Of a stretch of DNA of 64,000 nt, positions 1,431-28,239 are shown in pieces; positions within the stretch are counted from its first letter, which is position 1, and the number at the start of each line of letters is the position of its first letter. A program made the translations under genes and the position numbers. Origin of the DNA: a bacterium. Lineage in GTDB: Bacteria; Chloroflexota; Dormibacteria; Dormibacterales; Dormibacteraceae. The DNA lies in contig SCQL01000019.1 of the NCBI GenBank assembly GCA_004299235.1, positions 1-64,000 of the forward strand, written 5' to 3'. The notes beneath the pieces were generated by a model, which was not told the origin of the DNA, ran no database searches, and saw only the letters and a list, made by a program, of their open reading frames with translations.

Positions 1431-1437
1431 TGCCGGC

Positions 1438-5201: not shown

Positions 5202-5792
5202 ATGAACGAAGCGGACTCGAAGGCGATCGAGATGGTCAGGCTCGACGAAGCGGCGCGCCGACTCGGATGTCACGTCGAGACGCTGCGCATTCGAGTGCGC
5301 GACGGCCGCTTACGCGCCGTCCGTGGACCGCACGGTGCCTACTACGTGGCCGAGCGTGATCTAGTGGAACTTCCGGAGCCGCGGCGAGGATGGCCACCCC
5401 GGCGTACCTTCACTAGAAGCCAAGTAGAGGGTTCGTGGGAGTTGGTTGATGCCATCCTGAGTCCCGCCAAACAGTGGTCGAGACGTGAACTGGCGCTTGT
5501 CGGCGAGCTCCGAGCGAGGCCAGCCGCGAACATACCGCTCTACCGTCTCATTTCGGTCCACCGTCTCCGCAGGCTCGGCCTCGCTTTTGAGGATATTGGC
5601 GAGGAGCTCGGGATCACCGAACGCCACGCCCGTCGGTTGTTCGGGCGGAGAGTGTTCATTGCCTTGCGTCGCCACCTTATGAGGGGAGATCGCGCGGAGG
5701 CCAAACGCGAACGCGAGCTCGCTCGGCGCCAGACCCGCCTTGGGAGGCGCCGCGGTCGGCGCTGGCGACGCCAACCAGGATCGGAGGCATGA
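5202..5792 (+). CDS. mad1: HTH DNA-binding protein, MAD1-like, first gene of the defence operon
   Basis: A 196-residue basic protein. Residues about 10-55 form an excisionase/MerR-type winged helix (VRLDEAARRLGCHVETLRIR, then AVRGPHGAYYV). Residues about 115-155 give a second helix-turn-helix like sigma region 4 (LGLAFEDIGEELGITERHAR). The C-terminus is strongly Arg-rich. It sits at the head of the plus-strand operon and opposite the conjugation genes, as expected for the operon's own regulator. In published MADS loci the first gene encodes an HTH protein (MAD1); the match rests on position and domain type, not on a search. The frame is unusually rich in arginine at its end, so the last 20 residues may be less constrained. 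Confidence 0.65.
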   Translation: MNEADSKAIEMVRLDEAARRLGCHVETLRIRVRDGRLRAVRGPHGAYYVAERDLVELPEPRRGWPPRRTFTRSQVEGSWELVDAILSPAKQWSRRELALVGELRARPAANIPLYRLISVHRLRRLGLAFEDIGEELGITERHARRLFGRRVFIALRRHLMRGDRAEAKRERELARRQTRLGRRRGRRWRRQPGSEA

Positions 5793-5847
5793 GGCCGCCG
5801 GTCGGCGGATTGGCTCCAAGGATGTTAGCCTTGGACGGCAACCAAGG

Positions 5848-6099
5848 ATGCCTAAACTCAAAGCTGAAGCGCAAGGCAGAGTGCTTCCGACTGGAGAATG
5901 CTGGTGCGGCTGCGGTGGCGCGACGCCAGTGGGCTCTTTCTTCCTATCGGGTCATGACAAGAGGGCTGAGTCAGCGGTCATCTTGGTCGAGTTCGGAGGT
6001 GTCCCTGAATTTCTCCGCGCTATGGGGTACGGCCCAGGCGGTAAGAATGCTCAGAACGCGCTGGCGACCTGGAAGAAATCGTCCAATCGACGCCGTTAG
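5848..6099 (+). CDS. Small protein with CxCGCG...GHD signature
   Basis: An 83-residue protein; the ATG at 5848 is preferred over the in-frame ATG at 5740, which would overlap the end of the previous gene. Near the N-terminus is GECWCGCGGATPVGSFFLSG followed by HD, a compact Cys/His cluster (C-x-C-x-C plus a GHD) that resembles a metal-binding knuckle seen in small proteins of mobile elements. The rest is helical with a basic tail. It lies between the HTH gene and the methyltransferase gene, separated by 53 bases from the latter. Function unknown. It is not one of the eight MADS families I know of and may be an accessory of this locus. Confidence 0.6.
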   Translation: MPKLKAEAQGRVLPTGECWCGCGGATPVGSFFLSGHDKRAESAVILVEFGGVPEFLRAMGYGPGGKNAQNALATWKKSSNRRR

Positions 6100-6152
6100 C
6101 GCTGCGGCTTAGGTGCTCACCCGTTGTTTTGGTGAGCCCGTGAGGACCAGCG

Positions 6153-8186: not shown

Positions 8187-9511
8187 GCACTGTCATCGCG
8201 AGCAGCGCTTGGCTTGACCAGGAGCAACGGCGCCTTGACGCGGGTGCATTCCGTGAAGGTGGACAGGCCGTCCGAGCGCGAATTAGAGGCTTGGGCGCTC
8301 CGGTACGACGACTGGATCGGGTTGCGTCTATCTACAGCGAATCAAGATTCGCTCGGACGTACGTACCTGATCCAACTCGGGGCCTTCCGTATCTGACGGG
8401 CTCGGACATGCTCCTGCTAGATCTTCAGGGCCTGCTGCAGATATCCCGCGCGCGAACGAAGCAGGCTAGCGCTCTACGCATATTGGAGGGGTGGACGCTA
8501 ATCTCGTGCTCCGGCACGATAGGGCGCACCGCCTTTGTGCGGCGCGAGATTGCCGGCCACATCCTCTCCCACGATGTGATCCGGGCTGTACCCCACGACG
8601 GTGACATCAAGAAGGGCTATTTATTTGCCTTCTTATCGTCGCGTCAGGCCTTAGCGATGATCCGACAGAAGACCTACGGAAGTGTCGTCCAACACATTGA
8701 GCCGGGACACATCGCGGATCTCCCCGTGCCAACACCGGACTCCGCTGATGAGGACAACATCGATCGGCTCGTGTGCACCGCTGCTGAAGCGCGGACCGAA
8801 GCAGCAATGCTGCTCGACGCGGCGAGTGCCCATTTCGATTCGCTTGGTCCCCACTTCACCTATACGCAAGAACACCAACGCGCCGAGGGTGTTATCACAA
8901 AGGTCCGCCCCGGTCGGCGGCTAGATGCCTTTCATCATGTCGGGTGGGCCTCGCAGACTAACTTGTCCGACGGCGACCATTTGGGGGACCTCGGTCCGGT
9001 GTCACGCCCCGGCATGATCAAGCGGGTATTTGTTGAGCGAGGGGTGCCGTTCATTTCCGGCGTTGACGTATATCAAGTGAGGCCACCGTTCCGAACCCGA
9101 CTGATGACCCTGGAGGCAGAGCGCGCCAATGCTTTAGTCACCGCCGGGCAGATTGTGGTGCAGCGGTCGGGACAAAGGTACGGGCTACTCGGGCGACCGG
9201 CGCTGATCGGTCGGCGCCTGGATGGCTACGCAGCATCGGACCACCTTATGCGCATCTCCCCGGTAAGCCCGGAGGCTAGGGCACGCATCTTTGCATTTCT
9301 GCGATCAGAGCTTGGCCGGCGGTCTCTGCTCCGGACGAGCTACGGCACGTCGATCCCCACGCTAAATCCGGATGGTCTTGCCGACCAACGGGTGCCGGCA
9401 CTGCCTCTCGAACTTGTAAGTGCCGCCGAACGCGCCCTTCAATTGCGAGAGCAAGCTGACGCCGATGAGGAACAGGCGATCCGCAAGGTCGAGGCGTGGC
9501 TCGACTCGTAG
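8183..9511 (+). CDS. mad5: HsdS-like target recognition subunit (MAD5-like)
   Basis: A 442-residue protein with the two-half plan of type I specificity subunits. Target-recognition segments include YLTGSDMLLLDLQGLLQIS and WTLISCSGTIGRTAFV in the first half. A corresponding set in the second half has PFISGVDVYQVRPPFRT and QIVVQRSGQRYGLLG. Each half ends with helical spacer material (about residues 200-220 and 410-440). It pairs with the methyltransferase to set sequence specificity. Start and stop overlap both neighbours (4 bases upstream, 16 bases downstream), so translation is coupled. In MADS the S-type subunit is MAD5; here it follows the methyltransferase directly, with no genes between. 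Confidence 0.8.
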   Translation: MSTVIASSAWLDQEQRRLDAGAFREGGQAVRARIRGLGAPVRRLDRVASIYSESRFARTYVPDPTRGLPYLTGSDMLLLDLQGLLQISRARTKQASALRILEGWTLISCSGTIGRTAFVRREIAGHILSHDVIRAVPHDGDIKKGYLFAFLSSRQALAMIRQKTYGSVVQHIEPGHIADLPVPTPDSADEDNIDRLVCTAAEARTEAAMLLDAASAHFDSLGPHFTYTQEHQRAEGVITKVRPGRRLDAFHHVGWASQTNLSDGDHLGDLGPVSRPGMIKRVFVERGVPFISGVDVYQVRPPFRTRLMTLEAERANALVTAGQIVVQRSGQRYGLLGRPALIGRRLDGYAASDHLMRISPVSPEARARIFAFLRSELGRRSLLRTSYGTSIPTLNPDGLADQRVPALPLELVSAAERALQLREQADADEEQAIRKVEAWLDS

Positions 9512-12500
9512 AGGTGGCCGGCGCGGAAGGCCCTGCGAACGATTCCGAGCGAATCGCCGTACGCCAGTTTGTCGGTCAGCTACCCGCCGACTACTTCGTT
9601 ATTCCGAACTTTGTCTTAGAGGAGCGTGGTGGGCAGCGATTCGAGTACGACGTTGCGATTGTGGCTCCGCACGGAGTGTATGCGGTCGAGCTCAAGGGTT
9701 GGCGCGGCTCGATTTATGGGGACGCGGTCGAGTGGTCGGTGAATGGTAGAACCCGCAAGGCGCCGACGATGCTCATCGAACGCAAGGCGAAGGTTCTCAA
9801 ATCACACCTCATCGACGCCCAACAGGCCTGGGCACGTGTTCGAGTCGAGTCGATGGTTGTCCTTACGGACGCCGCCGTTCGGCTTGATTTGGCGGAGGGG
9901 AGCGGCGACCGAGTCTTCGATATGGCAGCGTGCATGAGTTTTCTTCAGGGCCCCGAGAGCATCAGACAGGGCAAGGGGTCAATCGCGGAATTCGCCCCTG
10001 AAATCGCGCGCTCGATAGCGTCGATCGGGCGCACCCGCAAGCCGGAGTTGACATTTGGGGACTATGTCGTCATCGAGGCGCTCGAGCAGAGTGATGACGA
10101 GACGATCTACCGAGCTCGAAATCGAGATATGCCAGCTGCCCCGGAAGTCCTACTTCGTGTCGTTACATTGTCGCCATACCTCCTCACCGAACAGCAGAAG
10201 TCTCTCCGGAAGGCTCAACTCTTCCGTGAGGCAGAGGCGCTGCTGACCATGGGTAGCCACCCAAATGTGGTAGCCGCCCGATCGGTTTTCACGGACGACA
10301 TCGGACGTGTCGTTCTTGTGAACGATGCGAGCGAGGGGCGAAGCCTTCGGCAGAGGTTGATGAACGGAACGCCACTGGCCGTTGAAGAGCGACTCGAGAT
10401 CCTAATCGGCCTCGCCCGCGGTCTGCGGCACGCTCACTCGCATGGCGTCATCCATCGACAGGTGGCACCACAAAACGTCTTGCTGGATGACCGAGGGACC
10501 GCGCAACTCGCCCACTTCGGCCTAGCCAAACTCTTGAAGCCGGAAGCTGGGACTGTGTGGGAGTCCGATGCGGTATCGCCGACCGTGGCGCCGTACTTAG
10601 CCCCTGAGCTTGCCGACGCAGACCTCGGTCCTCCGTGCCCTGGCACGGATTTGTTCGGTCTTGGTTGTATCGCGTACGAGCTGTTCGCTGGACACGCGCC
10701 ATCCCTAGCCGGCGGAAACAAAGACTCAGTCGCCTCGATGGACCGTCCCGACGGAGCTCCAGCCGGCCTTTGGGAACTACTCCCCGACCTGCTTAGGTTT
10801 GATCCCGCCGCTCGAGCAGGAGACACGGCTGCGATTGTTCAAGCACTTGAGTCTCTGAACCGTAAGGGTCGGACACCTTCCACCGGCCCCAAGAATGAGT
10901 ACAAACCTGGAGATCTTATAGACGGAAAGTTCGAGGTTCGGTCTCGACTCGGTGAAGGCGGATTCTCGAGCGTCTACCGCGTCTATCACGCCATCGAGGA
11001 TCGGGAGTTCGCCCTGAAGATTTTCAACGCTGGGAGCTTCGAAAAGCTGCAGCGAGAAACCCAAGTGCTTAGGACCATCAACCACCCTCATGTGGTGAAG
11101 GTGATTTGGGCTGATCAGACGCAGACCAAGCAGTGGTATTTGGTAAGTGAGCTGGTGGACGGCCAGCCCCTATCGGACTACATAGGAACCGCAAAAAAGC
11201 TCGGGCCGCAGGAAGCCGTTCGTGTTGTCCTCGATCTGCTCGGGGCTTTAGAAGCGATCCATCCTGACGAGCAGCGTATCGCCCAGCTAAAGGAGGCGGG
11301 CTCAAATCGAGATCTCACGACCGACGAGTTCAACGAGCTCCAATCGTTGCAGCAACGAGGCGTTGTGCACCGTGACATCAAACCTCAAAACCTAATGCTT
11401 ACCGAGCAAGGCGTGGTGCTGATTGACTTCAACATCGCCTCGAGAGCCGGCGCTCCAGTAGTGACCGTTTCAGGAACGCCTCCTTACCAACCGCCTGATG
11501 CTAACTACACGCGATGGACCGTGAGTACGGACCTGTTCGCCACTGGGGTCGTCCTCTTCGAGCTGCTGTGTGGCGACCATCCCTATGAAGACGGCCACCC
11601 GCGTAATGACCGATTACCTCGCGATCCGAGGTCGATGCGCCCAGAGCTCTCAGAGGAGATGTCGGAGTTCCTCCTCAAGGCCTGCGCTCCTGAATCCGAA
11701 CAGAGATTCCAATCCGCTAGGGAGATGCGAGCAGCACTGGCCTCGATAGATGTCGTGGTGTCCAACACCGCATCGGAAGTTCATGTGGGACTGCCATCTC
11801 GGCTAGCAGCCTTACTGGCGGCAAGCCCACCAAATGTCAATCCATTTGTCAGGGAATTCTTGTCTCTTGCCAGCCAGGCCCGTCTCACGAATAAGAACGC
11901 GAGAGGACTGAATGACCTTGCCGAAGTGACCTACGTGGAAACCCGCCTCGATGCCGAGTTAACGGACGCCATTCTCGAAGGCCGGCATCAGTTGGTGGTG
12001 ATCACCGGCAACGCTGGAGACGGAAAGACCGCTTTCATTCAACAGGTAGAGTCGCAAGCGTTGCAACGCGGTGCTAAGCGCCTTGAGCAGTCGGCGAACG
12101 GCGGCCGCCTGCGCTTCATGGCGCGAGACGTGATCACTGTGTACGACGGTAGTCAGGACGAAGACGACAAAGCCAGTGACGAGGTTCTGCACACCTTCTT
12201 TGCGCCGTTTGCGGCCCAGGGTGCTTCAGATGGCTCGGTGCGAGTCGCAGCCATTAATGAGGGGCGGTTGCGGGACTTTGTCCTCGGCTTCCGTGACCGA
12301 TACCCGCGGCTTGTTGACGTATTGGTGGAGCTGGATGACGCGGCTTATCGTTCGGAAGATCAAGCCATCGCGCTCGTCAACCTGAACTGGCGCTCTGTTA
12401 CAGCCGGTGGTTACGAATCAATCTTCAGTCGCCAGGTGCATGCGGTAGTCAGCGGCCCATTCTGGGAGAAGTGCCAGGCATGCGATTTCCGCGCAAGATG

Positions 12501-13560
12501 CCCCATCAAGCACAACGTTGATACGTTGCGCGACAGCACTGCAGGTCCTGTGGTTATAGAACGACTCCGCCGCTTGGTCGACCTCGTACGGCTTCGCCAG
12601 CGACGCCATCTGACGATGCGGGATATTCGCTCGCTCATTTCGTTTCTACTCTTCCGAGACCGCACATGTGAAGAGATCGCTGAAGCTCTTCAAAGTGATG
12701 ATCCGTTAGTGGTCGCAAACCTTGCCTACTTCCAGGCTGTGGGCGCACTGGGGCAACCGGCTGGCAGTGTTGTTGATCGCTCGGCGCTTCTGCTGGCGGA
12801 GGCGGACATTGCCCTCGTAGCTAGTCCTGTCGAGGATCGCGCCGTAGCTCTCGGCAAGTTGCCACGGCGCTTGGCTGTCCCAACGAGGGAGAGCGACCAT
12901 CCAGCGGAGTTACTGCTTGAGGCACAAAGGCGCGCGGGATACGGGTACGAGAGCGACGCAGCGCAGTCGTCTCGGATTCTGCAAGGACTCAGAAGGCTTG
13001 TCTTCTTCGAGCGGAGCGATGAGAAGTGGTGGGACATGGTGCCCTACCGCAAGCTCCAAGCCCTGGAGAAGGCTCTCGAGCCCAATGCTGAGAATGCCCG
13101 TCAATCCCTGGGTGCGGAGATCATTACCGCCTTATCCACGTCAGAAGGCATCGATGACGTTACACGCGCTTCTCAGGCGTTGTGGCTTGCCACCACCGAC
13201 GAGACCGAAGTCGGAGTCAAGTCATACAAGCGTTTCGCCGCCAGCGACTTCAATGTCCGCATAGCCGCTGCGCAACGGCCCTATGTGGAGGCTGCCCCCG
13301 ACCACCTCGAGTTGATCCACTCGCCAAGCGGGATTGTCCTGGGCGTGACTGTTGATGTGCTTGAGGTTCTCGAACGACTTCAAGAGGGTCACGTGCCTTC
13401 GCTCGAAGAGGCACGTGGATTGCTGGTCAATCTCAAACTGTTCAAGCATCGCCTTCTTGCTCTTCCAACATCTTCCCTTGTACTCGTCGCAGAAGACGGT
13501 GAGTACGAAATCGCGGGACATTTGGATGGCCGTGTGGAGCTTATCGAGGCCAAGAAGTGA
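9496..13560 (+). CDS. mad6: NERD domain / pseudokinase / Ser-Thr kinase / P-loop protein (MAD6, PglW-like)
   Basis: A 1354-residue multidomain protein. Residues about 15-150 are a NERD nuclease-related domain (YDVAIVAPHGVYAVELKGWR, with the E-x-K pair). Residues about 185-430 are a kinase fold with a degenerate active site (HRQVAPQN at 320 in place of HRD, and HFG for DFG). Residues about 471-755 are an apparently active kinase: GEGGFSSVY at 486, HRDIKPQN at 625, DFN at 644. A second ATP-binding module has the Walker A GNAGDGKT at 838-845, and a Cys cluster CQACDFRARC lies near residue 993. PglW of BREX type 2 and MAD6 of MADS share NERD plus kinase. A downstream GTG at 9514 is an alternative start. 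It probably senses infection and signals by phosphorylation. Confidence 0.85.
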   Translation: MARLVEVAGAEGPANDSERIAVRQFVGQLPADYFVIPNFVLEERGGQRFEYDVAIVAPHGVYAVELKGWRGSIYGDAVEWSVNGRTRKAPTMLIERKAKVLKSHLIDAQQAWARVRVESMVVLTDAAVRLDLAEGSGDRVFDMAACMSFLQGPESIRQGKGSIAEFAPEIARSIASIGRTRKPELTFGDYVVIEALEQSDDETIYRARNRDMPAAPEVLLRVVTLSPYLLTEQQKSLRKAQLFREAEALLTMGSHPNVVAARSVFTDDIGRVVLVNDASEGRSLRQRLMNGTPLAVEERLEILIGLARGLRHAHSHGVIHRQVAPQNVLLDDRGTAQLAHFGLAKLLKPEAGTVWESDAVSPTVAPYLAPELADADLGPPCPGTDLFGLGCIAYELFAGHAPSLAGGNKDSVASMDRPDGAPAGLWELLPDLLRFDPAARAGDTAAIVQALESLNRKGRTPSTGPKNEYKPGDLIDGKFEVRSRLGEGGFSSVYRVYHAIEDREFALKIFNAGSFEKLQRETQVLRTINHPHVVKVIWADQTQTKQWYLVSELVDGQPLSDYIGTAKKLGPQEAVRVVLDLLGALEAIHPDEQRIAQLKEAGSNRDLTTDEFNELQSLQQRGVVHRDIKPQNLMLTEQGVVLIDFNIASRAGAPVVTVSGTPPYQPPDANYTRWTVSTDLFATGVVLFELLCGDHPYEDGHPRNDRLPRDPRSMRPELSEEMSEFLLKACAPESEQRFQSAREMRAALASIDVVVSNTASEVHVGLPSRLAALLAASPPNVNPFVREFLSLASQARLTNKNARGLNDLAEVTYVETRLDAELTDAILEGRHQLVVITGNAGDGKTAFIQQVESQALQRGAKRLEQSANGGRLRFMARDVITVYDGSQDEDDKASDEVLHTFFAPFAAQGASDGSVRVAAINEGRLRDFVLGFRDRYPRLVDVLVELDDAAYRSEDQAIALVNLNWRSVTAGGYESIFSRQVHAVVSGPFWEKCQACDFRARCPIKHNVDTLRDSTAGPVVIERLRRLVDLVRLRQRRHLTMRDIRSLISFLLFRDRTCEEIAEALQSDDPLVVANLAYFQAVGALGQPAGSVVDRSALLLAEADIALVASPVEDRAVALGKLPRRLAVPTRESDHPAELLLEAQRRAGYGYESDAAQSSRILQGLRRLVFFERSDEKWWDMVPYRKLQALEKALEPNAENARQSLGAEIITALSTSEGIDDVTRASQALWLATTDETEVGVKSYKRFAASDFNVRIAAAQRPYVEAAPDHLELIHSPSGIVLGVTVDVLEVLERLQEGHVPSLEEARGLLVNLKLFKHRLLALPTSSLVLVAEDGEYEIAGHLDGRVELIEAKK

Positions 13561-15170
13561 ATTCCCTCACTAAGTCTCAAGTCGCTTTCAAGACCGAAGA
13601 GATCACCTATCTCGATCGCAAGTCAATCCTGTTGGATCGAATGCTTCTCCGACTCTTCGAGCTTCTCAGATATGACGGGAGGAAGGTCCATCGACGCCGC
13701 ACTCGCTCTGTTGACGTTGCCACTGTGACGCAGGCAATGCTCGATAACCCGGGCCGTTTTCCAGGTTTTGCGACCCATCCTGATATTGCCCGGGCCTGGC
13801 TCCGAAATGATCTCCTCGAGATCATGAACCGAGGGCGACGTGGCACGGAAGTCGTTGTCGGCCCACGCCCGTTTCATCTCAGCGCGTTCAAACTTGCCAA
13901 TCCGAAGGCCGCCCAGGACTACGGTGCTTCTGATCAAGTTTGGGCTCTGCTGTATCACGCCGATCGTCCGATTCTTGCGCAGCTGAAGGAGTTCTTTGGT
14001 CGGGGACTGGATCCAGCGCTGGACAGATACGACAAATCCACAATCTTGGATTTGGAGACACTGGCAATTCTGGGGCTCGCCGATGACATTGAGGTGAGCC
14101 CAGCAACAGCGGCGCCGGCGGAACCGACGCGACCGCTGTGCATGGCGCAGGGTCGGATTCTGGCGGACGATCTGCGTCGTCTTCTCGCCTACGACGGCAG
14201 CGTGCCGCGCAACGTTCTGGCTGACTACATCCGCAACGTCATCGGGTTGCACTTGGCTCTACTCATGCTCCGCCTGCTTCGGCTTGTCCCGCACAAGGTT
14301 GACGAGGCCCGTCACGCCGGTCCCTCGGTCACGTGCCCGGCCGAGGATCACGCCGTAGCGGACTGCGCCAACTGCCCCTTCGGCGCTGAGATCACGGTCG
14401 ACATGACGGACGATCCTGCGTCGCCACCGGGACTCCTCGCGCGGCGATCAGCCGTCGACCATTACGGTCGTATCCCCGAGTATGTGCGGGCAGTCTTCAC
14501 CGTAAACAGGCTGAAGGACTATGCCCAGGTCTTAACCGCTTCCGGAAGGCGTGCGCACGCGCGGTCACTCGCTGACCTTCTAAGCATTTTGCACGATCCC
14601 CCGTCCGATGCTGAAGGCTTCTTTGGCGCCAGGATTGCCGATGTCCTTACCCGAGACAACGATGGAGACGAGGAAGAAGACCCAATTGTTCGTCAGATTG
14701 TGGCTAGCGACATGACCTCGATGGATCGCTTTGTGGAACTGATCTGTCTCCAGCGCCTTAGGAATGAAGCCAAGCGGGTCACTGAGCTTGTGGACTCCCT
14801 AACTCAAAAGAATCGCCCCGGCGGCTTCCTTCGCCAGACTGTCGGCAGTCGCGCCCCACGATGGTTCGTCATGTCAAGCGGCCTTCTCGAGACGCTGGCT
14901 CAGATTGCAGTTGTCGAGCGAAATGAGGGCCGCCTCGATACCCGCCCAGTACTCCTGGACGACTTTGTGACCTGGCTGCGCCGTAGATACGGCTTCGTCA
15001 TATATGCCCCAACACATCGCGAGGTTCCGCCAGATGAGTACGCAGCCTGGCAGCAGAACGAGCGAGCATTGAGAGATCGCCTGCATGAAATCGGCTTCTT
15101 CGTAGATTTGTCCGATGCATATAACTCCCAGACCCTGAGGCCTCGGTATCAATTGGGGAGCTCTTCGTGA
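13557..15170 (+). CDS. mad7: Unknown defence-operon protein (MAD7-like)
   Basis: A 537-residue soluble protein without a recognisable catalytic motif. It opens with TYLDRKSILLDRMLLRLFEL and is mostly helical. A possible zinc site lies mid-protein (TCPAEDHAVADCANCPFG, cysteines at about 260, 270 and 273). A very acidic linker (NDGDEEEDP) is near residue 365. The GTG start overlaps the stop of the kinase gene and its stop overlaps the next GTG, each by 4 bases, so it is probably needed in fixed ratio with both. Order kinase-unknown-ATPase matches MAD6-MAD7-MAD8. The name is positional; I cannot assign an activity. Confidence 0.7.
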   Translation: MNSLTKSQVAFKTEEITYLDRKSILLDRMLLRLFELLRYDGRKVHRRRTRSVDVATVTQAMLDNPGRFPGFATHPDIARAWLRNDLLEIMNRGRRGTEVVVGPRPFHLSAFKLANPKAAQDYGASDQVWALLYHADRPILAQLKEFFGRGLDPALDRYDKSTILDLETLAILGLADDIEVSPATAAPAEPTRPLCMAQGRILADDLRRLLAYDGSVPRNVLADYIRNVIGLHLALLMLRLLRLVPHKVDEARHAGPSVTCPAEDHAVADCANCPFGAEITVDMTDDPASPPGLLARRSAVDHYGRIPEYVRAVFTVNRLKDYAQVLTASGRRAHARSLADLLSILHDPPSDAEGFFGARIADVLTRDNDGDEEEDPIVRQIVASDMTSMDRFVELICLQRLRNEAKRVTELVDSLTQKNRPGGFLRQTVGSRAPRWFVMSSGLLETLAQIAVVERNEGRLDTRPVLLDDFVTWLRRRYGFVIYAPTHREVPPDEYAAWQQNERALRDRLHEIGFFVDLSDAYNSQTLRPRYQLGSSS

Positions 15171-18100
15171 CAGGCCAAAGGGTCTTGGTCGCGATGCCGG
15201 AAGGAGACGTCCAGGCTGCTTGGCTCGAAGTCCTCCTTGGGCATCTCAAAGAGGAACTGGCTCATGCCGAACCGGGACAGTGTCTAAGGGTTGGCGGCCT
15301 ACCCCGCTCGCTTCTCGAGACAGCAATCGGCTCGCTCTACGCCGGGAATGGCACCACGGTTCGCATCGGGCTCGTTGACCGAACCAGCGGACCCGAGCCG
15401 TGGCGTGTTGGTGTTCACCGGATCGTGGAATATCGGAATCTGGAAGGCCCGGTCGTCCTGGCAGCGATACCCCCTGATGTGAAGCTGGCGGCCGGCGATA
15501 GCGTCGACATATCCGTATTTCGCGAAATTCGCACGGAGAGTCTTGGAGATCTGGTGACCCTGACGCTGTTGGCTCAGCTGAACGGATGGGTGGGGCCTTC
15601 CGTCGAGCTTCTTCTTGAGGACCTTGATAGAAGGGGTTTTGCATTCTCAGAGAGTCAGCAACACGAGTTCCTCGCCACCGTCGCGAGTCAGCCTCGGGAA
15701 GTATGGGCAGTCGGTGCGGCGCTCGGGGTTCTCGGTCTCGTGCCCGATTTCGCGCTGTTTGACCAGCCCGGGGAGATGTCGTTTCGTCTGGGCCAGCGGA
15801 ATCTCCCGGTGGTTAAGGCGCTCGAAGGAAAGTCGGGGACGTTGCTTGAGCGAGTTCTTCGACTTCCGGTCACCGAGCAGCCCTTTCGAGAGAAGCTCTT
15901 CAAGCTCCTAACCAGTTATGGCGGTGATATCGCGCCAGCCCTCCGGGCTATAGCCACTGAACTTCGGTGGCGCGACCTGTCTCTTGATCTCTGGCCATTT
16001 GGCGACGAAGTGGTGCCTCCAGGCGAAATCCGGGTCGAGGTGTCGCCTCTCCGACTCCCACGACGCATTGACGATGGCCTGTTGTTGTGGGACCCCGGGA
16101 CAAAGGTGAAAGTGGGATGGAGTACGACACCACCGCCGGCCGATGTCACCGGCCTTGCAGCCTTCCGAGTGGAGCTCGTGACCTCGGAGCGGGAGGTAGT
16201 CTGGGAGTCTCCCCTCATACGTCGGGGTACCGGCAAGTCCAGTCACCGGAGCCGGACCGTGCGTGACCTCCACGACATTGAGCCCGGCATCCACTTCTTC
16301 CGTGTCACGGCAAATGCCGAGTCTGCCGATCCCTTTCCTGTTCAACCACTGCGTAATCCCGAAGAGGGCGACGGTGGCAAGCGGACTAATGAGACCGAAG
16401 ACTTCCTTGTGCTCGCTCCCAGTGATGTCGGTGAGACTTCGGTCGCACCCACCAGAGCCTACTTCGTGGGTGGGCATACGGAGGCCGAACTGCTCGCGCG
16501 TTCGGCTGCCATTGGGTCTACGCGACCTGTCGATGGAATCGTAATGACCGACGCATCCTGGGACAACAGCATTGAGGCTGCCACCGACGTAGCCACGGCT
16601 ACCCTCAGATTTGATCTGCGCCAGTACACCGTTCGCCTGAGTCAACGGCTCCGGCAGCTCGAAACTCAACTCCTCGCGACGCCAACTCACGGCGGGCACG
16701 TCTACGTCAACCTTGATCGACGGCACGGCGACCCCGAGGTTGTGCCGCTGGTGATGCCGTCGGAATTTGTCGCGGCGCGACAAGATGCGTTTGAAGCTAT
16801 TGGGCGAGCATCGTCTCTTGAGGACGGTGGGCCTGCGGTTTGTCTTGTTGATCTATCGAAGGCGTCGGACCAAATCGAGAGGTATGCCCACGCGTACCTA
16901 GACTGGCTTGTGAACCGCGACGCTCAAGCGCTTCTGGTTGACGTCATTCGTGTGGACCTGGGCCACGCAGGTCGAGTTGCTCTAGTCGCTCCAACTCACC
17001 CGCTCAGACTCCTTTGGATGCTTCAGCATCAAGCCGTCGCGCGTGATTGGATCCGACGACTGGCCGGAGCAGCGTTACCTGTGATGGATCCTATTCAGTT
17101 GTTTCGTGACAGTTTCAATGGGTTCGGGTTGCCGCCGCTGGCCGTTCTCGGTGCAAGCGAAGGCTACGTGGACGCTGGCGTCCTTCCTGGTGGATGGGGC
17201 CTGTATGTACCACCTAGGCTCAGAGACTCACGGACAATGCTCGCCTCGTTGAAGTCACGCCTCGGTGTGGCGGCGGAGCAGCGTGCCGAGACGGATCTCC
17301 AACCTCGGATTTTGGCGGACAAGTTGGAGGCATACCTTCAGCAACATCCCTATACGCCGGCCCTCGTGCTCAACGTCCTAAACCCAGGGGATGGCGGCCT
17401 TGTCGTGGCCGCGCTGATTGACTTGGAGAGCCGCATGATGCGCGCTGATCGCACCCTGCGGTATGAGGTCCGACTGTTTGCGGAGGATCCGTCAACTGAG
17501 GTTGTAGGTGAGGCCTTCCGCGACTTGATGGAACCAGAACGCCAGGTTGCCGAGGCCGCCGCTCGCCTTGCGGGCCCCGGACGATCGTTCTTGTTCCCGA
17601 AGCTCGCCTGGTCGCGCAAGGCAACCGCCCGCTTCCTTGAGGACCCCGAGCGCTTTCCAGCGCACGTAACAATCATTCTCGACGCGTTTCCAGTGATGCT
17701 CCGAGTGGCACGTGTCGACCCGGACGATCGCAGCAGCTTCGTCCATGGTTTGATCCAGGAAGCCCCGCGTCGATTCGTGGGTAGGGGCGACGCCTTCTCA
17801 TGGATACGGCGCCCGGCGCCACGGGCCTGCACCGAACTTGTTGGCGCTCCGGATAGGGCTGCGCTCATTGCAGGTTTGGTTGCCGAAATGGGCTCAACCC
17901 AAGCTGCGGTGTTAGCGCCTGGTGCGGATTCGGAGGCAATCACCGGAGTTTCAGCACTGGACCTCTCTCTGGCCGGCCAAACGTTGTTGTACGCGGCGCA
18001 TTTGGTTTCGACTTGGGTCCTTACGGTCGATTCGAATCTCGGCGTTGACTACTTTGATGCGGCTAGCCGCCAGGAACGCCCCGGTTATCTACTGGATTTC

Positions 18101-20446
18101 ACTCCGGAGTTCGTTGCAACAGGAGGCCGCCAGGTACTGCTGACCACTCGGGCCGCGGATGAGGTCACCCGCTTGGTGGCGCCTCTGACCGAGCAGCTGG
18201 ACGTAGATCCAGACGGGCCCGGACCATTGCTACTCCTCGAGGCACTGAGGTCGCTATCGGGTCGCCTCGCGATGCGCCTTATGTCGGCACCGAGCCAAGT
18301 TCAAGGTGCCCTTGGTATGGCGCTGTCGAGGATCTTCCTTGAGGCCCACGGTCTGCTGGAGGACGCGATCATCATCCCGCTCGACGCCCATCCAGAACTC
18401 GCCGTGCCAACGGAAGAGGGAGCGGCCGCCTTGCGAGGGGACCTGTTGGTGGTTTCGGTCGATGCGACCGAGCGCCTTATCGATTTCATGGTGATCGAGA
18501 GCAAGTGCCACCGTGGTACCGGCCTGGGCGACGACCTAAGGAATCGCATCGCGCAGCAAGTGACGGCAAGTGCGGAGCGCCTTAGGGCGCTGTTCTGGCC
18601 TCTCGAAACGGAGGACCGAGTGGATCGCGCGCTGCGCAGCTGGCAACTCACAACCGTACTGGGTTTCTATCTCGACCGGGCTCGGCGCTATGGTTTGGTC
18701 CGACCAACGGCAGCCGCCGCGTTCCACCGATTTATTGCTGACCTTGACCGCGGATACCGTATGTCGATTCGCCGGGCAGGGCTCGTTTTCAGACTCGACG
18801 AGCAGTCCTCGTGGTTGGACGAATCCGATCCTGAGATTCCAATTTGGGTCATCGGCAAAGGCTCTATCACGAACATGTTGACTGAGGCGATCCGAGACTT
18901 CGTAGTCGCGGCGGAGGAGCCTACGTCTGAGACGGCGTCTGAGTCCGCGGGCGTGAGCCGATTGATCACGAGCACCCGCGATCGCGAACCCACCTGGGAG
19001 GATGTCCGGCACACATTCGGTGGACCCGGCTTGGCGACTCGAAGTCGCGATGATAGGGCGGGGAGTGGCGGCGATGATGTAGCAGCGGGTGCCGATCCAT
19101 CGGGCGAACCGACCGGCGATTTGAACGAAGGCGCCGAGGTCACCCGTGCAAAGGAATCCGCCACTGGTGACGCACCACATCCGAGCACCGTGAAGTCGCA
19201 TTCAGAAATTGAGGGCGGCGATTTAGACGCAACAGACGGTCCGTCGTGGGATGTGCTTTTAGGCGAATCGCGGTCAACCCCTCAGTACGGCCTTTTGGCA
19301 TCGGTAGCCTCCGAACCGTGGCGATCAGTAGCACTTGACCTGAACGGCTGCAACACGATCTCCGTTTTCGGTGTGCAAGGAGGAGGTAAGAGCTACACGC
19401 TTGGTTCGATTATCGAAATGGCGTGTCAGGAAATACCGGCGATAAGCCGAATCCCACGGCCATTGGGGGCGGTGGTCTTTCACTATCACCAGACGCAGGA
19501 TTACCCGCCTGAATTCGTCTCGATGGTTGCTCCAAACAAGCACGCAGAGGAAGTGGAGGCGCTCAGGAAAATGGGCGCGGAGCCGGCTGCATTAGACGAC
19601 GTCCTTCTGTTGACGACCCCCGACACTCTGAGTCGGCGCCGCGAACAGTTCCCCAACATTCAGGTCGAACCGATTGCCTTCTCGAGCGCCGAGTTGACGG
19701 TGGCCGACTGGCGCTTTCTCATGGCTGCAACCGGATCGGATGCGCTCTATCTGCGCCTGGTCAATGAGGTGATGCGGCTGCAGCGGGATGATCTCAACCT
19801 CGCGAGGATCAGAGACGGCTTGTCGCATGCTGGACTGAATGACGGCCAACTTCGGTTGGCAACCACCAGGCTCGACTTCGCGGCACGTTTTATTGATGAT
19901 CGGCGCTCACTGCGTTCACTGATGAGACCAGGACGCTTGGTGGTGGTTGATCTGCGCGACGAGTTCGTCGAACGCGATGAGGCACTCGGTCTTTTCGTGA
20001 CCATGCTCAATGTGTTCTCAGGGGCAGGTATTGACAAGGATCCCTTCAACAAGCTCATCGTCTTTGACGAAGCGCACAAATACATGGGAGGCTCGCTGAT
20101 CGGCCAGGTCGTCGAGGTCATACGAGAGATGCGGCACAAAGGCGTGTCGATAGTGGTTGCGTCGCAGGACCCTGTGAATGTCCCGTCGTCGGTCATCGAG
20201 TTGTCCTCGGCGGTAGTTCTCCATCGGTTCAATTCTCCGAATTGGCTGAAGCACATCCAGCGGTCGCTGACATCGTTGGGGGAACTCACCCCAGGCGCGA
20301 TGAATGCTCTCCAGCCGGGTGAGGCCTTCGTTTGGTCTAACCGATCAACGGATCCGGTATTTACTCGGCGCGCCGTCAAGGTTCGGATGCGTCCTCGTGT
20401 GACCAACCACGGTGGGGCAACGAGGACCGCCGTCGACGATGCATAG
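15167..20446 (+). CDS. mad8: Giant PD-(D/E)XK-like and HerA-type ATPase fusion (MAD8-like)
   Basis: A 1759-residue protein. The first 1000 residues are not recognisable, though FVARQD and DWLVNRDAQALLVDV segments look folded. At about 1090-1112 the pattern GDLLVVSVD then FMVIESKCH fits the D-x(n)-E-x-K core of PD-(D/E)XK nucleases. A low-complexity linker (about 1265-1350) leads to a HerA/DUF87-type ATPase: Walker A GVQGGGKSYT near 1400-1410, Walker B NKLIVFDEAHKYMGG at about 1627-1640, and SIVVASQDPVNVP as the following sensor strand. HerA-type motors translocate along DNA and usually pair with nucleases, so this is the likely effector. It is the last gene of the overlapped operon. MADS ends with an ATP-binding protein, MAD8. 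Confidence 0.75.
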   Translation: MTGQRVLVAMPEGDVQAAWLEVLLGHLKEELAHAEPGQCLRVGGLPRSLLETAIGSLYAGNGTTVRIGLVDRTSGPEPWRVGVHRIVEYRNLEGPVVLAAIPPDVKLAAGDSVDISVFREIRTESLGDLVTLTLLAQLNGWVGPSVELLLEDLDRRGFAFSESQQHEFLATVASQPREVWAVGAALGVLGLVPDFALFDQPGEMSFRLGQRNLPVVKALEGKSGTLLERVLRLPVTEQPFREKLFKLLTSYGGDIAPALRAIATELRWRDLSLDLWPFGDEVVPPGEIRVEVSPLRLPRRIDDGLLLWDPGTKVKVGWSTTPPPADVTGLAAFRVELVTSEREVVWESPLIRRGTGKSSHRSRTVRDLHDIEPGIHFFRVTANAESADPFPVQPLRNPEEGDGGKRTNETEDFLVLAPSDVGETSVAPTRAYFVGGHTEAELLARSAAIGSTRPVDGIVMTDASWDNSIEAATDVATATLRFDLRQYTVRLSQRLRQLETQLLATPTHGGHVYVNLDRRHGDPEVVPLVMPSEFVAARQDAFEAIGRASSLEDGGPAVCLVDLSKASDQIERYAHAYLDWLVNRDAQALLVDVIRVDLGHAGRVALVAPTHPLRLLWMLQHQAVARDWIRRLAGAALPVMDPIQLFRDSFNGFGLPPLAVLGASEGYVDAGVLPGGWGLYVPPRLRDSRTMLASLKSRLGVAAEQRAETDLQPRILADKLEAYLQQHPYTPALVLNVLNPGDGGLVVAALIDLESRMMRADRTLRYEVRLFAEDPSTEVVGEAFRDLMEPERQVAEAAARLAGPGRSFLFPKLAWSRKATARFLEDPERFPAHVTIILDAFPVMLRVARVDPDDRSSFVHGLIQEAPRRFVGRGDAFSWIRRPAPRACTELVGAPDRAALIAGLVAEMGSTQAAVLAPGADSEAITGVSALDLSLAGQTLLYAAHLVSTWVLTVDSNLGVDYFDAASRQERPGYLLDFTPEFVATGGRQVLLTTRAADEVTRLVAPLTEQLDVDPDGPGPLLLLEALRSLSGRLAMRLMSAPSQVQGALGMALSRIFLEAHGLLEDAIIIPLDAHPELAVPTEEGAAALRGDLLVVSVDATERLIDFMVIESKCHRGTGLGDDLRNRIAQQVTASAERLRALFWPLETEDRVDRALRSWQLTTVLGFYLDRARRYGLVRPTAAAAFHRFIADLDRGYRMSIRRAGLVFRLDEQSSWLDESDPEIPIWVIGKGSITNMLTEAIRDFVVAAEEPTSETASESAGVSRLITSTRDREPTWEDVRHTFGGPGLATRSRDDRAGSGGDDVAAGADPSGEPTGDLNEGAEVTRAKESATGDAPHPSTVKSHSEIEGGDLDATDGPSWDVLLGESRSTPQYGLLASVASEPWRSVALDLNGCNTISVFGVQGGGKSYTLGSIIEMACQEIPAISRIPRPLGAVVFHYHQTQDYPPEFVSMVAPNKHAEEVEALRKMGAEPAALDDVLLLTTPDTLSRRREQFPNIQVEPIAFSSAELTVADWRFLMAATGSDALYLRLVNEVMRLQRDDLNLARIRDGLSHAGLNDGQLRLATTRLDFAARFIDDRRSLRSLMRPGRLVVVDLRDEFVERDEALGLFVTMLNVFSGAGIDKDPFNKLIVFDEAHKYMGGSLIGQVVEVIREMRHKGVSIVVASQDPVNVPSSVIELSSAVVLHRFNSPNWLKHIQRSLTSLGELTPGAMNALQPGEAFVWSNRSTDPVFTRRAVKVRMRPRVTNHGGATRTAVDDA

Positions 20447-20866
20447 ACTCCTGTAAGCGAACCCGCCGAGTAGGTGGATTCCCCTTAACCGGCAGGGTTC
20501 CAATCTGGATCGCGTGCGGGGATTCTTTGATCCATGGCGGACAACGCGGGGCGTTACAGCATCCAAGTGATCGTGGCTATTCAGCACCGGAATCGGAATG
20601 ATGCCTTAGCACACCTGCGGCGGAGGCTCGCCGAATGGATGATGGAGGACATCGATGGTAGTGGCAGCTCGCCACTCGCGGGCTCCCTGCTGCATTACAC
20701 CGTGCTCAGTCATCGATACATCGGGGGAGCTATGAAGGGAAGCCGCACGATCGAGGGGAAGGCTCGAGGTCGTGACTCCGGGGGCCAATGCCTGGTCGAA
20801 GGAGAGATTTGAGGAGTTGGCCGGGTGAATCAAGGGAAATAGCTTCGCCACTTGCATTACACACCC
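20447..20866. other. Spacer between defence operon and AbiE with one weak ORF
   Basis: Apart from the weak plus-strand frame annotated at 20534-20812 I see no gene here. It is a convergent junction between the plus-strand operon and the minus-strand abiE pair. No hairpin with a T-run stood out. Confidence 0.4.
20534..20812 (+). CDS. Possible small hypothetical protein
   Basis: A 92-residue frame beginning MADNAGRYSIQVIVAIQHRN, with a plausible amphipathic helix (NDALAHLRRRLAEWMMEDID). It starts 87 bases after the ATPase stop on the same strand. The ribosome site is weak (GGGG 13 bases upstream). It could be a real small accessory of the defence operon or a chance frame in the spacer. No family is recognised. 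Confidence 0.3.
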   Translation: MADNAGRYSIQVIVAIQHRNRNDALAHLRRRLAEWMMEDIDGSGSSPLAGSLLHYTVLSHRYIGGAMKGSRTIEGKARGRDSGGQCLVEGEI

Positions 20867-21712
20867 TTAGGTCTTCGTTGATGCGCGCCAGCGACCATCT
20901 CTGATCGCATCCAAACCCGGGGCGTGCGCCAAGCGGCTCGCCAGCCGCTCCATGACAAGATCCGCAGCGGCCACGAGCTCGTAGCCGGCAGGCGTGGCCG
21001 TGACCAAATCATTCAGGTCGCCCGCGAAGTCACGGTCGGCGAGCTTCTCCGCTAGGTTGCCGGCGAAGTCGGAATAGGTGAAGGCGCCGCCCTGCATGTA
21101 GTGGTTGAACGCCTGAATGATTCGCTCGTCGTTTGCCTCTGACTCGATGAGGACGTGCCAAAGATCGAAAAGGTCGCGGCCCTTGCTCCGTTGATAGAGG
21201 GCGCGGAGCTTCGTGCCCATGAGTTCGTCAAGTTGGAACGTGGGGATGTCAGCCTCACCTGACCACCAGGTTGACGACACCTTGTAATTGCGATTGGTTC
21301 TTTCGAAGCAAGGCTCCGTCTCCCGAACATTCATCTCGATGTCGATCCTTATACGCCGCGATCCATCCGTGGATTCCGTGACGAAGACCATGTGGACCAT
21401 CTGGCCGACCTGCAAGAAACTGTGCTCGACGAGCCCAACGTCGATGGCGATCTTTCGCAGCGCCGCCATGTAGGGCTTGATCCCCGAATGAGTGCGACGC
21501 ACGTAGTCAAGATCTTCCGAATAGCGCAGAGGCTGGGGCAGATGGAGCTTGTGAAGGCAGGTCCCGCCGCGCATCGCCAACTCATCCCTTAGCAATTCAT
21601 CGTTGGCGATCTGCACCATGAGCCGCGACAAGATCAAATCCTGTTCGACGTCAGCTTCTGTCGGCCACGGTGCGCGCGCGGCCCACTCTGTGATCTGCGC
21701 GCGAGGTATCAA
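20867..21712 (-). CDS. abiEii: AbiEii-type nucleotidyltransferase toxin
   Basis: A 281-residue protein from a TTG start at 21712 (LIPRAQITEW). This start overlaps the antitoxin stop (GTTTGA) and matches the usual AbiEii beginning; an ATG at 21751 would add 13 residues inside the antitoxin gene. The nucleotidyltransferase motif is seen in MRGGTCLHKL and LRYSEDLDYV (GG...S-x-DLD). A conserved RIDIEMN strand and the motif LDELMGTKLRALYQRSKGRD with FDLW follow. AbiEii toxins of this type IV system transfer nucleotides to RNA (shown for tRNA in related toxins), halting growth during phage infection. Confidence 0.85.
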   Translation of the reverse strand: MIPRAQITEWAARAPWPTEADVEQDLILSRLMVQIANDELLRDELAMRGGTCLHKLHLPQPLRYSEDLDYVRRTHSGIKPYMAALRKIAIDVGLVEHSFLQVGQMVHMVFVTESTDGSRRIRIDIEMNVRETEPCFERTNRNYKVSSTWWSGEADIPTFQLDELMGTKLRALYQRSKGRDLFDLWHVLIESEANDERIIQAFNHYMQGGAFTYSDFAGNLAEKLADRDFAGDLNDLVTATPAGYELVAAADLVMERLASRLAHAPGLDAIRDGRWRASTKT

Positions 21713-22494
21713 ACGTCGGGCTCCACAGCAGCGTTGATTCGAAGTCCCCATCTTCGATCAAGCTCTCCCCGCTTGCGACCGGGAACCAGCAGCGCCGGCT
21801 CTCCTTCTTCTGGTCGAGCGACCACGCGCAACCAGTGCGAATCAAGATCAGTGCGAAATCGCTCTATCAACCAGCCGACGCGGCGGACCGTCGCCCTGTT
21901 TCGCAGGGGTGCTATGCGGGCGAGGACTTCAGTGTCGAGTTGCCCGATCTCCTTCAGAACCGTCGCAACATTACTGATGCCTCCAGCGAGGCTCGGTCGC
22001 CAAGCGAGGTCGACGACCGTCGTTTCAGAGGACGCCACTGTCATGTAACCGGTTTGAACGGTGCGGCGCTCGGTTGGCATATCGGCCACATGCTGGCTGG
22101 CAGTGAAACGCAATCGGACTCTCTCGAAGTCGCGATCTGGCAGGGCTTGGGTCGTGACGACACGGAACGTCTGCGGCGCTTGGTGCGATGCCCCATGCAG
22201 CGCCGCGGCGTTCAGGAAGCCGACGTAGTAATCGCGTCGTAAGTGCTTCATCATCGCGTCGATGAACCACTCGGCTGGCACAACCTTCCAGGACCGAAAC
22301 TCTGCCGGAACTACGACATAGAGGCCTCGGGCCGGGCTAAACAGCCGGCCTTCTTTGGTCAAGCGCGCAAGCGATGTTCGCAGGACGGCGTGCTTCTGGC
22401 CGGTCATCTCCTCGAGCTCAGCGGTCGTTGCCCAATAGCGGCCCTTGGCGATTAGGACGTCGGGGGTCTCTGACGGGGGAACAGTTGTGGTCAT
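21709..22494 (-). CDS. abiEi: AbiEi-type antitoxin and autorepressor
   Basis: A 261-residue protein with an N-terminal winged helix (GRYWATTAELEEMTGQKHAV then TSLARLTKEGRLFSPARGLY). A C-terminal antitoxin domain follows, including YYVGFLNAAALHGASHQAPQ and VVTTQALPDRDFERVRLRF, both standard for AbiEi. The winged helix binds the promoter and represses the operon; the C-terminal part neutralises the toxin without stable binding (type IV). It is the first gene of the pair, overlapping the toxin start. Upstream lie two matching dyads at 22503-22529 and 22566-22592 that fit autoregulation. Confidence 0.85.
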   Translation of the reverse strand: MTTTVPPSETPDVLIAKGRYWATTAELEEMTGQKHAVLRTSLARLTKEGRLFSPARGLYVVVPAEFRSWKVVPAEWFIDAMMKHLRRDYYVGFLNAAALHGASHQAPQTFRVVTTQALPDRDFERVRLRFTASQHVADMPTERRTVQTGYMTVASSETTVVDLAWRPSLAGGISNVATVLKEIGQLDTEVLARIAPLRNRATVRRVGWLIERFRTDLDSHWLRVVARPEEGEPALLVPGRKRGELDRRWGLRINAAVEPDV

Positions 22495-22502
22495 TGTTTC
22501 GG

Positions 22503-22529
22503 GTGAAGTATACCTCTGAGCTACTTTAC
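22503..22529. promoter_or_regulatory. Proximal AbiEi operator candidate (imperfect dyad)
   Basis: Arms GTGAAGTAT and CTACTTTAC are separated by 9 bases. Comparing one arm with the reverse complement of the other gives 7 matches of 9. It lies 9 bases upstream of the antitoxin start and has the same 9-9-9 geometry as the perfect dyad further upstream, so it is probably bound by the same repressor and blocks the promoter. Confidence 0.55.
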
Positions 22530-22565
22530 GTCAAACAATAGACTCCACGAGGGTGATTAGATCGG

Positions 22566-22592
22566 CTAAAGTATATGGTTTCAATACTTTAG
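22566..22592. promoter_or_regulatory. Distal AbiEi operator candidate (perfect dyad)
   Basis: A perfect inverted repeat CTAAAGTAT, 9-base spacer, ATACTTTAG. Its start is 63 bases from that of the proximal dyad, close to six helical turns, so two bound repressors would lie on the same face of the DNA. It is also upstream of the plus-strand gene at 22685 and could influence that gene. Confidence 0.6.
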
Positions 22593-22684
22593 AAGAGCTA
22601 GACACCATGGATCGCTTGGTAGCGCCTTTGAATCTATTGCACTCTGGCCAACACTAACGGTGGGGACGAAATGGAGGTGGACAC

Positions 22685-23398
22685 ATGAAAATCACGATTG
22701 ACATCGACGACGACGAGATTCGCCGCCTTCTCGCTCCGCTGGCTCAGCAAGTGCCCGCTCCCCTGGAGCAGACGACAACAAGGCTATTGAACGTCAGGGA
22801 GGTAGCCGACCGCCTTGGCGTCAGCCGCAACAAGGTGTATGAGTTGCTCTACAAGGGGGAAATCCACTCGCTAGCTATAGGCCGCACCAGGCGGATCTCA
22901 CCCGTTGCTCTCGCCGAGTTCATTTCCAGACCGAGAGAGAACACGGTGGACTACGCCCCACCGCCACCGCGGGCTGAGCCCGAGCGATCGGCGAGCTACC
23001 GGAGGTCGCCCCGAACCCCTAGCCCGCGAGCTGAACAGCCCAAAACGCGTCGGTCGAAGCCAGGCGATGTGATTGACCTGTCTCCCAAGCCGCTGCCTCC
23101 TGCGTCTCGTGATTTGAACATGAGCAGCGAAGAGTTCGAGCGCGCTCTCGCCTCCATGGTCGAGAAGGGCTGGCCGGCGGACGTGGTCGATCAGATCCGA
23201 GCCGACCGCAAGGAAGGAGTCCATCGGGTCAATTTACTGACAATCAACGACGCCGCCAAGTACCTGGGTTTGAGTCGCTATGGGGTCGAAAAATTGGTCA
23301 AGGCCGGCAAACTACGCCGCTTGACAATCGCACCCATGTATCGGGATCAGAAGCCGGAAACGCGTATCCCAGCCAAAGACATTTTGGCTCTCACTTAG
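22685..23398 (+). CDS. Double excisionase-type HTH protein (candidate Xis/directionality factor)
   Basis: A 237-residue protein. After a short acidic start (KITIDIDDDEIRRLLAPLA), residues about 37-78 form an excisionase-family HTH (LLNVREVADRLGVSRNKVYE, then IHSLAIGRTRRISPVALAEF). A Pro/Arg-rich linker follows (residues 80-140). A second similar HTH occupies residues about 182-235 (LLTINDAAKYLGLSRYGVEK). It sits about 400 bases from the putative right attachment site, where recombination directionality factors are often found, although the matching integrase is not in the window. The ribosome site GGAGGTGG lies a few bases before the ATG. Confidence 0.7.
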   Translation: MKITIDIDDDEIRRLLAPLAQQVPAPLEQTTTRLLNVREVADRLGVSRNKVYELLYKGEIHSLAIGRTRRISPVALAEFISRPRENTVDYAPPPPRAEPERSASYRRSPRTPSPRAEQPKTRRSKPGDVIDLSPKPLPPASRDLNMSSEEFERALASMVEKGWPADVVDQIRADRKEGVHRVNLLTINDAAKYLGLSRYGVEKLVKAGKLRRLTIAPMYRDQKPETRIPAKDILALT

Positions 23399-23645
23399 GC
23401 ACCCTCCGGGCACGTCCAGTGGCTTGCTGCTGCTGCTGCTGCCTGCCGGGTTGCGACCTCGCTCGCGAAGTGTCCGCGCTCCTCAGAATTGCGGCAATGC
23501 GCGTGAGCACAACGGGGTCAGTGACCTTCGGTGGGAAACCTTGCGCCGCTCGTTCGGCAACCAGCCGCGCGGCGGCTTCGCGTATCTGCTCAGGCGGAGC
23601 CTCGGGCCGGCGCCTGGCGCGAGCGTCATACATGGGCATCGACAT
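23391..23645 (-). CDS. Small basic hypothetical protein
   Basis: An 84-residue protein: IREAAARLVAERAAQGFPPK then a VTDPVVLTRIAAIL helix, followed by a Gln run encoded by repeated CAG codons and a basic tail. Short proteins with this TDP...IAAIL pattern accompany integrases and Replic genes on actinobacterial-type mobile elements, in my recollection, but no function is known. It is convergent with, and overlaps by 8 bases, the HTH gene. Start may be either of two closely spaced ATGs (23645 or 23636 region). Confidence 0.5.
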   Translation of the reverse strand: MSMPMYDARARRRPEAPPEQIREAAARLVAERAAQGFPPKVTDPVVLTRIAAILRSADTSRARSQPGRQQQQQQATGRARRVPK

Positions 23646-23814
23646 CAGGCTATCGCCTTGCGTGTGTCATCGACCCCAACGGTCGCGCAGTTTTTCTAGC
23701 GCCAGGTAAAATGCGAGGGTTCGCTGAAGACGATCAGCGAGCCGCCCAAACGGTTAGTGGACCGTTGGGTTAAGGGCCCTTTGGGGCCGGTTCTGAATTC
23801 AACAACACCACAAG

Positions 23815-23885
23815 GGTCTTCAAAACCGTCTGCGGGGCGCTGCTGAGGCGTCCTGGGTGGGTTCGATTCCCATCCATCCCCGCCA
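23815..23885 (+). pseudogene. selC': 3' part of tRNA-Sec(UCA): likely right attachment site (attR)
   Basis: From the anticodon loop to the CCA end this is a selenocysteine tRNA. It has loop CTTCAAA with anticodon TCA and a long variable arm (GGGGCGC paired with GCGTCCT, two G-U). The T-arm is GTGGG-TTCGATT-CCCAT, the 3' acceptor half has 8 bases (CCATCCCC), then discriminator G and encoded CCA. The 5' half is missing: bases before the loop do not pair with ACCGTC beyond GGT, and no D-arm is present. GGGGCCGG at 23783 would pair with only six of eight acceptor bases. A 3' tRNA copy in this orientation marks the far end of an element integrated in selC. Confidence 0.7.
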
Positions 23886-23920
23886 AGTTCGGCGCCGATG
23901 ACAGCCACGGAGTCACCGAC

Positions 23921-24952
23921 CTACTGAAGCGGAAACGGCGGCTGCCACCAGGCAGGCACGTCGTCGACCTCGATGGCGCCCACCCATTTGACCCACCAGA
24001 AGCCGCGCCCTTCGGGTACGACCAGGCGTGCGGGGAAGCCGTGCCCGGGATCCAGTGCGTAGCCCCCGACGCGAGTGGCCAGCAGGAGTGAGCTCGCCTG
24101 ATCGATCGGGAACCGGCGGTCGTAGCCGGTGATCGAGACGACGCGGATGCTTGTGCCGTCCACTTTTCCAATCAGGTGATCCAGTCGTGCGCCGGTCCAC
24201 TCTTGGGTCGAGAAAAAACCGCCGGTGCAGTCTAGCGTTGCCCTCATTCGGTCATCGAAGGCGAAGAGCTCGGCATACGACCATTCGCGCCCGCCCGCGG
24301 TCAACCGCCACGCGTGCTGGTTGGTCTGCGGGACCGCATCGAACATCCATGAGCTGATGGGCATCAGGTCTGGCTGGTAAGAGCCGGCCTCGTATGAGCC
24401 GGTGAACCGGCGCACCGCGCCTGGCATGGCGGTCGCCCTGACCACGACTTCGCTTGCCGCATAGGCCACGGTCGCGCCGGCGACGACGGCTCCCGCAAGC
24501 AGCACGTTGCGCCGGGACAGATCGGTAGGGCGGACGCGGACAGGCCGCGAGGCCACATGCCAGATGGCGAACGGAACTGCGGCGATCGCACTCCCCACGT
24601 GAAAGTCCATCGCGGTGAGAGGACCCCAATAGATGAGCAGGCCGGTGGAGTGGAGCAGGCCGGCCACCAGCGAGATCAGCACCAGCACACCGAAAAGGAC
24701 GGACGCCCAACGACCGGGCCGGGGTCGACCAAGTCCCCGCCGACCGATCATCGACTTCCAAGGCAGCAGGATGAGGATCCCGAAGCCACCCGCCGCGTGG
24801 ATGGCAAGCGACCATCGAGCAGGTGCGGTGGCGAAGGCGAACGCGAGCCAGCCAGTGAGGAATGCGATCGCCAGGAAAGCGAGCAAGGCAAGGTTGGTTC
24901 GCGCCCCACGCGCGATGGCCACCGGCGGCCACGCCGAGAGCCGTGCGCTCAT
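23921..24952 (-). CDS. Membrane-anchored molybdopterin oxidoreductase (sulfite-oxidase/YedY family)
   Basis: A 343-residue protein. Residues 1-170 hold about four to five hydrophobic helices (ALLAFLAIAFLTGWLAFAFA and others) with histidines that could bind heme b. Residues 185-340 are the Oxidored_molyb domain: LDCTGGFFSTQEWTG supplies the molybdenum-ligating cysteine (residue 242), and later strands include RVVSITGYDRRFP and GFWWVKWVGAIEV near the C-terminus. Such proteins reduce or oxidise small sulfur or nitrogen compounds on the outer face of the membrane; the substrate is not known. First chromosomal gene after the island. Confidence 0.8.
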   Translation of the reverse strand: MSARLSAWPPVAIARGARTNLALLAFLAIAFLTGWLAFAFATAPARWSLAIHAAGGFGILILLPWKSMIGRRGLGRPRPGRWASVLFGVLVLISLVAGLLHSTGLLIYWGPLTAMDFHVGSAIAAVPFAIWHVASRPVRVRPTDLSRRNVLLAGAVVAGATVAYAASEVVVRATAMPGAVRRFTGSYEAGSYQPDLMPISSWMFDAVPQTNQHAWRLTAGGREWSYAELFAFDDRMRATLDCTGGFFSTQEWTGARLDHLIGKVDGTSIRVVSITGYDRRFPIDQASSLLLATRVGGYALDPGHGFPARLVVPEGRGFWWVKWVGAIEVDDVPAWWQPPFPLQ

Positions 24953-28233: not shown

Positions 28234-28239
28234 CAGCGT

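Follow-up and report, generated by a model that had tools for sequence, protein, structure and literature searches.

A displaced selC 3' fragment as the probable right end of an integrated island in a Dormibacterota genome

We analyzed a 64,000-nucleotide stretch of DNA (referred to here as the window), which corresponds to positions 1 to 64,000 of contig SCQL01000019.1 (C19; G000:C19:1-64000) in assembly GCA_004299235.1. A 71-base piece of a tRNA-Sec gene (selC) in this window is, with a probability that we put at about 93%, the attR end of an integrated and probably mobilizable island that inserted at selC in a Dormibacterota genome. According to this reading, a tyrosine integrase encoded at the left end of the island would have recombined the anticodon stem-loop of selC with a matching core on a circular element. 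The element would have brought along a new 3' half, leaving selC intact at the left end, beside the integrase on a second contig (C15), while the original 3' half would have been displaced by at least 33 kb and would persist as the 71-base remnant. Islands targeted to tRNA genes are an ordinary and well-known kind of event, and the added interest of this one comes from its host phylum and from the selC hotspot described below. The reading would fix the right boundary and the insertion mechanism for a defense-carrying, probably mobile island of an uncultured and poorly known phylum of soil bacteria, and it presents selC as an insertion target in Dormibacterota.

The selC fragment and the intact selC gene

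The right boundary of the proposed island comprises the following features of the window.

23483..23836, plus strand: conserved right terminus of the element family (359-bp match of 80.5% identity to DMCH01000109.1 [L200]; shorter matches in G028 and G020)
23815..23836, plus strand: 22-bp crossover core GGTCTTCAAAACCGTCTGCGGG, anticodon stem-loop region (selC homology from 23815; right-end homology of relatives stops at 23836)
23815..23885, plus strand: displaced selC 3' fragment (attR side), ending in CCA (70 of 71 bases shared with C15:9488-9558; 33.2 bits with RF01852, cut-off 47)
23899..23907, plus strand: one TGACAGCCA copy immediately after the fragment, corresponding to half of a paired repeat that stands beside selC in relatives
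23921..24952, minus strand: first gene outside the island, a molybdopterin-binding oxidoreductase (PF00174, 65.8 bits; orthologues in 33 of 42 family genomes)

A BLAST search of window positions 23700-23990 against the host genome returned one other strong match, C15:9488-9558 on the minus strand (99% over 71 bp, E = 3.9e-29). This match belongs to an intact tRNA-Sec gene (C15:9488-9587, minus strand), of which it forms the 3' part. ARAGORN calls that gene as tRNA-SeC (tca), its score with the Rfam model RF01852 for tRNA-Sec is 68.6 bits (gathering score 47), and its folding energy of -53.7 kcal/mol is far lower than that of shuffled versions (z = -3.55). The initial annotation, made from the letters of the window, had placed and dissected the fragment correctly and had foreseen a second, intact copy in the genome. 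It had expected the 71 bases to be identical, but one of them differs, being C in the fragment and T in the intact gene. No selC homology precedes position 23815, giving the fragment a sharp left edge.

An integrase gene had likewise been expected beside the intact copy, and a tyrosine integrase gene (L012:8337-9374; PF00589, 94.9 bits) indeed starts 114 bp past the CCA of selC; on its opposite side, selC is bordered by a thioredoxin gene. The intact gene had been predicted to lie to the left of the window. The relative orientation of selC and the fragment agrees with this, fitting an order of reverse-complemented C15 followed by C19, as do the relatives that link both ends (see below), but the two contigs are not joined, and, since the window begins at base 1 of C19, no sequence to its left leads on to selC. 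The host assembly is fragmented into 100 contigs, and no direct overlap between the ends of C15 and C19 was found. The island is therefore split between 9.5 kb at its left on C15 and 23.8 kb at its right on C19, with a size of at least 33 kb. Because these pieces lie on separate contigs without overlap, additional DNA or another element may separate them. The island-side end of C15 (L012:1-225) is a 225-bp imperfect palindrome (89%), which is perhaps what broke the assembly there.

Orthologues of the oxidoreductase gene to the right of the fragment are located away from selC in the relatives examined; this counts against the proposed reading, and for that reason also a search for the empty site by means of this gene was dropped. 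Farther to the right (window 25143-31465) lies a cluster of genes for hybrid histidine kinases and for protoglobin-STAS, STAS, and SpoIIE-type phosphatase proteins.

The crossover core and the link between both ends

In the element family, four right ends, namely, those of the window, G025, G028, and G020 (contig C24), resemble one another as far as the core and differ beyond it, the last three running into unrelated DNA. Given that selC homology begins at 23815 and right-end homology stops at 23836, the crossover must lie inside GGTCTTCAAAACCGTCTGCGGG. From the way in which tyrosine recombinases work, the 7-base loop CTTCAAA, flanked by CGGT and ACCG, is likely to be the overlap region. Of the two main site classes in the Islander catalogue (PMC4383910), one is anticodon-centered.

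Both ends of the island are connected through relatives. In G020, whose contig matches PLYZ01000084.1 (Candidatus Dormiibacterota, palsa_870), a single contig carries selC followed by an integrase 94.5% identical to that on C15, an AbiE pair, and Replic_Relax and TrwB-like genes; the latter two are 86% and 87% identical to the genes at window positions 1438-5027, with conserved order and orientation. A single contig of UBA10874, DMCH01000109.1, carries both the right end that matches the window and, about 5 kb from it, an integrase gene that is related but interrupted. The base composition of the two island pieces is also alike, with a GC content of 0.609 on C15 and 0.606 on C19 versus 0.670 and 0.676 outside. 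Taken from these sequences, C15 and C19 are probably neighbors in the genome, their ends being joined via relatives and not by the assembly.

A different arrangement would be that at least two elements sit in tandem at selC; the integrase on C15 would then be part of the first of them, the fragment at 23815 would terminate the second, and C15 and C19 would not carry one element. Tandem selC fragments are indeed known in relatives and the assembly lacks the middle of the region, but the right terminus of the window and the C15 integrase share one element family, the mobilization genes near the left edge of the window adjoin that integrase in G020, and just two selC 3' ends are present in the assembly. 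We thus regard this arrangement as improbable. There is very little left to recommend a chance match, an assembly artifact, or a random duplication with no tie to integration: the 100 contigs and the palindrome at the end of C15 might invite such a view, but the E value, the correct orientation, and the integrase in its predicted place speak against it, as do the independent right ends that stop at the same core in other genomes, and the linked ends in relatives contradict it. Equally hard to credit is a working, unusual tRNA-Sec or tRNA-like RNA, since the covariance model does thread a full-length alignment through the fragment, but with a score below the gathering score because the 5' half is unrelated to selC and aberrant, with broken pairs, while ARAGORN calls no tRNA in the window and the fragment folds no better than its shuffles (z = -1.05). 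The covariance scan of both copies proposed in the initial annotation separates them, and the two findings named there as fatal to the idea, a complete tRNA-Sec in the window or the lack of a second copy, did not materialize. We therefore retain the single island with its attR end at the fragment.

Cargo, mobilization genes, and host

The part of the island inside the window contains the following features.

1..23814, no strand: right part of the island (GC content of 0.606 versus 0.676 right of the fragment; gene content)
1438..2532, minus strand: Replic_Relax family protein (PF13814, 83.5 bits; homologue on the G020 selC island)
2529..5027, minus strand: TrwB/TraD-like coupling ATPase (PF10412, 33.2 bits; homologue on the G020 selC island)
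5202..20446, plus strand: MADS-like defense cluster with mad1-, mad2-, mad5-, mad6-, mad7-, and mad8-like genes (PADLOC; NCBIfam MAD2)
20867..22494, minus strand: AbiEi/AbiEii gene pair (PF09407 and PF08843; PADLOC AbiEi/AbiEii)
22685..23398, plus strand: helix-turn-helix protein with a mad1-like domain (PF12728, 76.1 bits; PADLOC mad1, 43.6 bits)

The NCBIfam MAD2 model reaches 716.1 bits, just short of its cut-off of 720, and neither mad3 nor mad4 was recognized among the proteins scanned. The last protein of the MADS-like cluster (1,759 amino acids) shows mad8-like matches at both of its ends, in different libraries. A CapP-like peptidase is also among the cargo, and the left part of the island (L012:893-3214) encodes a 773-amino-acid protein with a C-terminal ThiF/E1 domain that matches PADLOC E1-E2 models.

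No conjugation pore genes were recognized among the proteins scanned. The Replic_Relax and TrwB-like genes suggest that the island would transfer by using the conjugation machinery of another element, and it is probably mobile.

The initial annotation had also supposed that the host uses selenocysteine. The host encodes adjacent selA and selB genes, which fit such use, and our literature search found no paper on Dormibacterota and selenocysteine.

The selC hotspot in relatives and comparison with known systems

Across the relatives examined, no conserved gene follows selC, and the DNA downstream of it differs in nearly every one of them. Several genomes (G005, G030, G016, G020, G023, G062, and G063; loci L077, L079, L074, and L202-L208) contain additional selC 3' fragments, in one orientation per contig. 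Some of them stand in tandem rows downstream of intact selC, mostly without a nearby integrase. The paired repeat TGACAGCCAAnnTGACAGCCA was found in 21 of 42 relatives, often by selC 3' fragments, while a reversed control pattern gave no match. Copies next to a fragment are spaced about 120 bp from it upstream and 13 bp downstream (about 100 bp downstream in genus g4). Unrelated genes lie between the fragments, coding, for example, for a PIN protein, a DUF4386 protein, a glycosyltransferase, and an alcohol dehydrogenase; some cassettes are very small (about 1.3 to 1.8 kb), and the arm layout is conserved across genera. An apparent 280-bp insertion inside the selC copies of G025 turned out to be a scaffold gap of N.

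Integrases are scarce in these arrays. Over 394 kb of array stretches, two local integrase profiles matched at only three loci, and in G030, which has two short cassettes, the single PF00589 protein of the genome is encoded on another contig. The integrase gene beside the array platform that defines an integron is lacking, as most array stretches hold no integrase. The G003 integrase was considered as a trans-acting candidate and rejected, its best relative being 56% identical (G025) and the others 49% or less.

Decayed cis-mobilizable elements (PMC5704250) or arrays like those at ssrA in Dehalococcoides (PMC3146451) would explain the cassettes most simply. A bolder and, in our estimate, rather doubtful idea is that selC of this family anchors a gene-cassette array, in which short cassettes (from about 1.3 kb), each with a selC 3' core and paired TGACAGCCA arms at near-fixed spacing, would be captured successively by a recombinase acting in trans, accumulating accessory genes in an integron-like manner; the island in the window would then be a separate element using that core. 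A family-wide selC hotspot with a conserved attachment-site layout could help show how genes line up at a single tRNA gene when no integrase is encoded nearby.

Relatives of the integrase on C15 adjoin tRNA-Ser, tRNA-Leu, and tRNA-Tyr genes (L197, L198, L199, L102, L113, and L217). These three and tRNA-Sec make up the class of tRNAs that have a long variable arm, and in this small sample the integrase subfamily seems to favor genes of that class.

The island resembles the tRNA and tmRNA islands of Islander (PMC4383910) in having a regenerated tRNA gene at one end and a displaced 3' fragment at the other, a tyrosine integrase beside the intact gene, and an anticodon-centered crossover; it differs from them in its target, selC in Dormibacterota, and in having its ends on separate contigs. 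With its integrase, its Replic_Relax protein (a putative relaxase), and its TrwB-like ATPase, and with no pore genes recognized among the proteins scanned, it is also similar to integrative and mobilizable elements (PMC5704250), a comparison that may lack the middle part of the island. The selC arrays of the relatives share with the ssrA islands of Dehalococcoides, about half of which have no integration module, the tandem direct repeats of the 3' end of an RNA gene (PMC3146451). Those islands, however, involve a serine recombinase and ssrA, whereas the relatives studied here have tyrosine recombinases, tRNA-Sec, and conserved paired arm repeats. The cassettes also fit cis-mobilizable elements arising by accretion (PMC5704250), as they are in tandem and keep attachment sites while integrase and transfer genes are absent, but, unlike such elements, some of them measure only about 1.3 to 1.8 kb and have an arm layout common to several genera.
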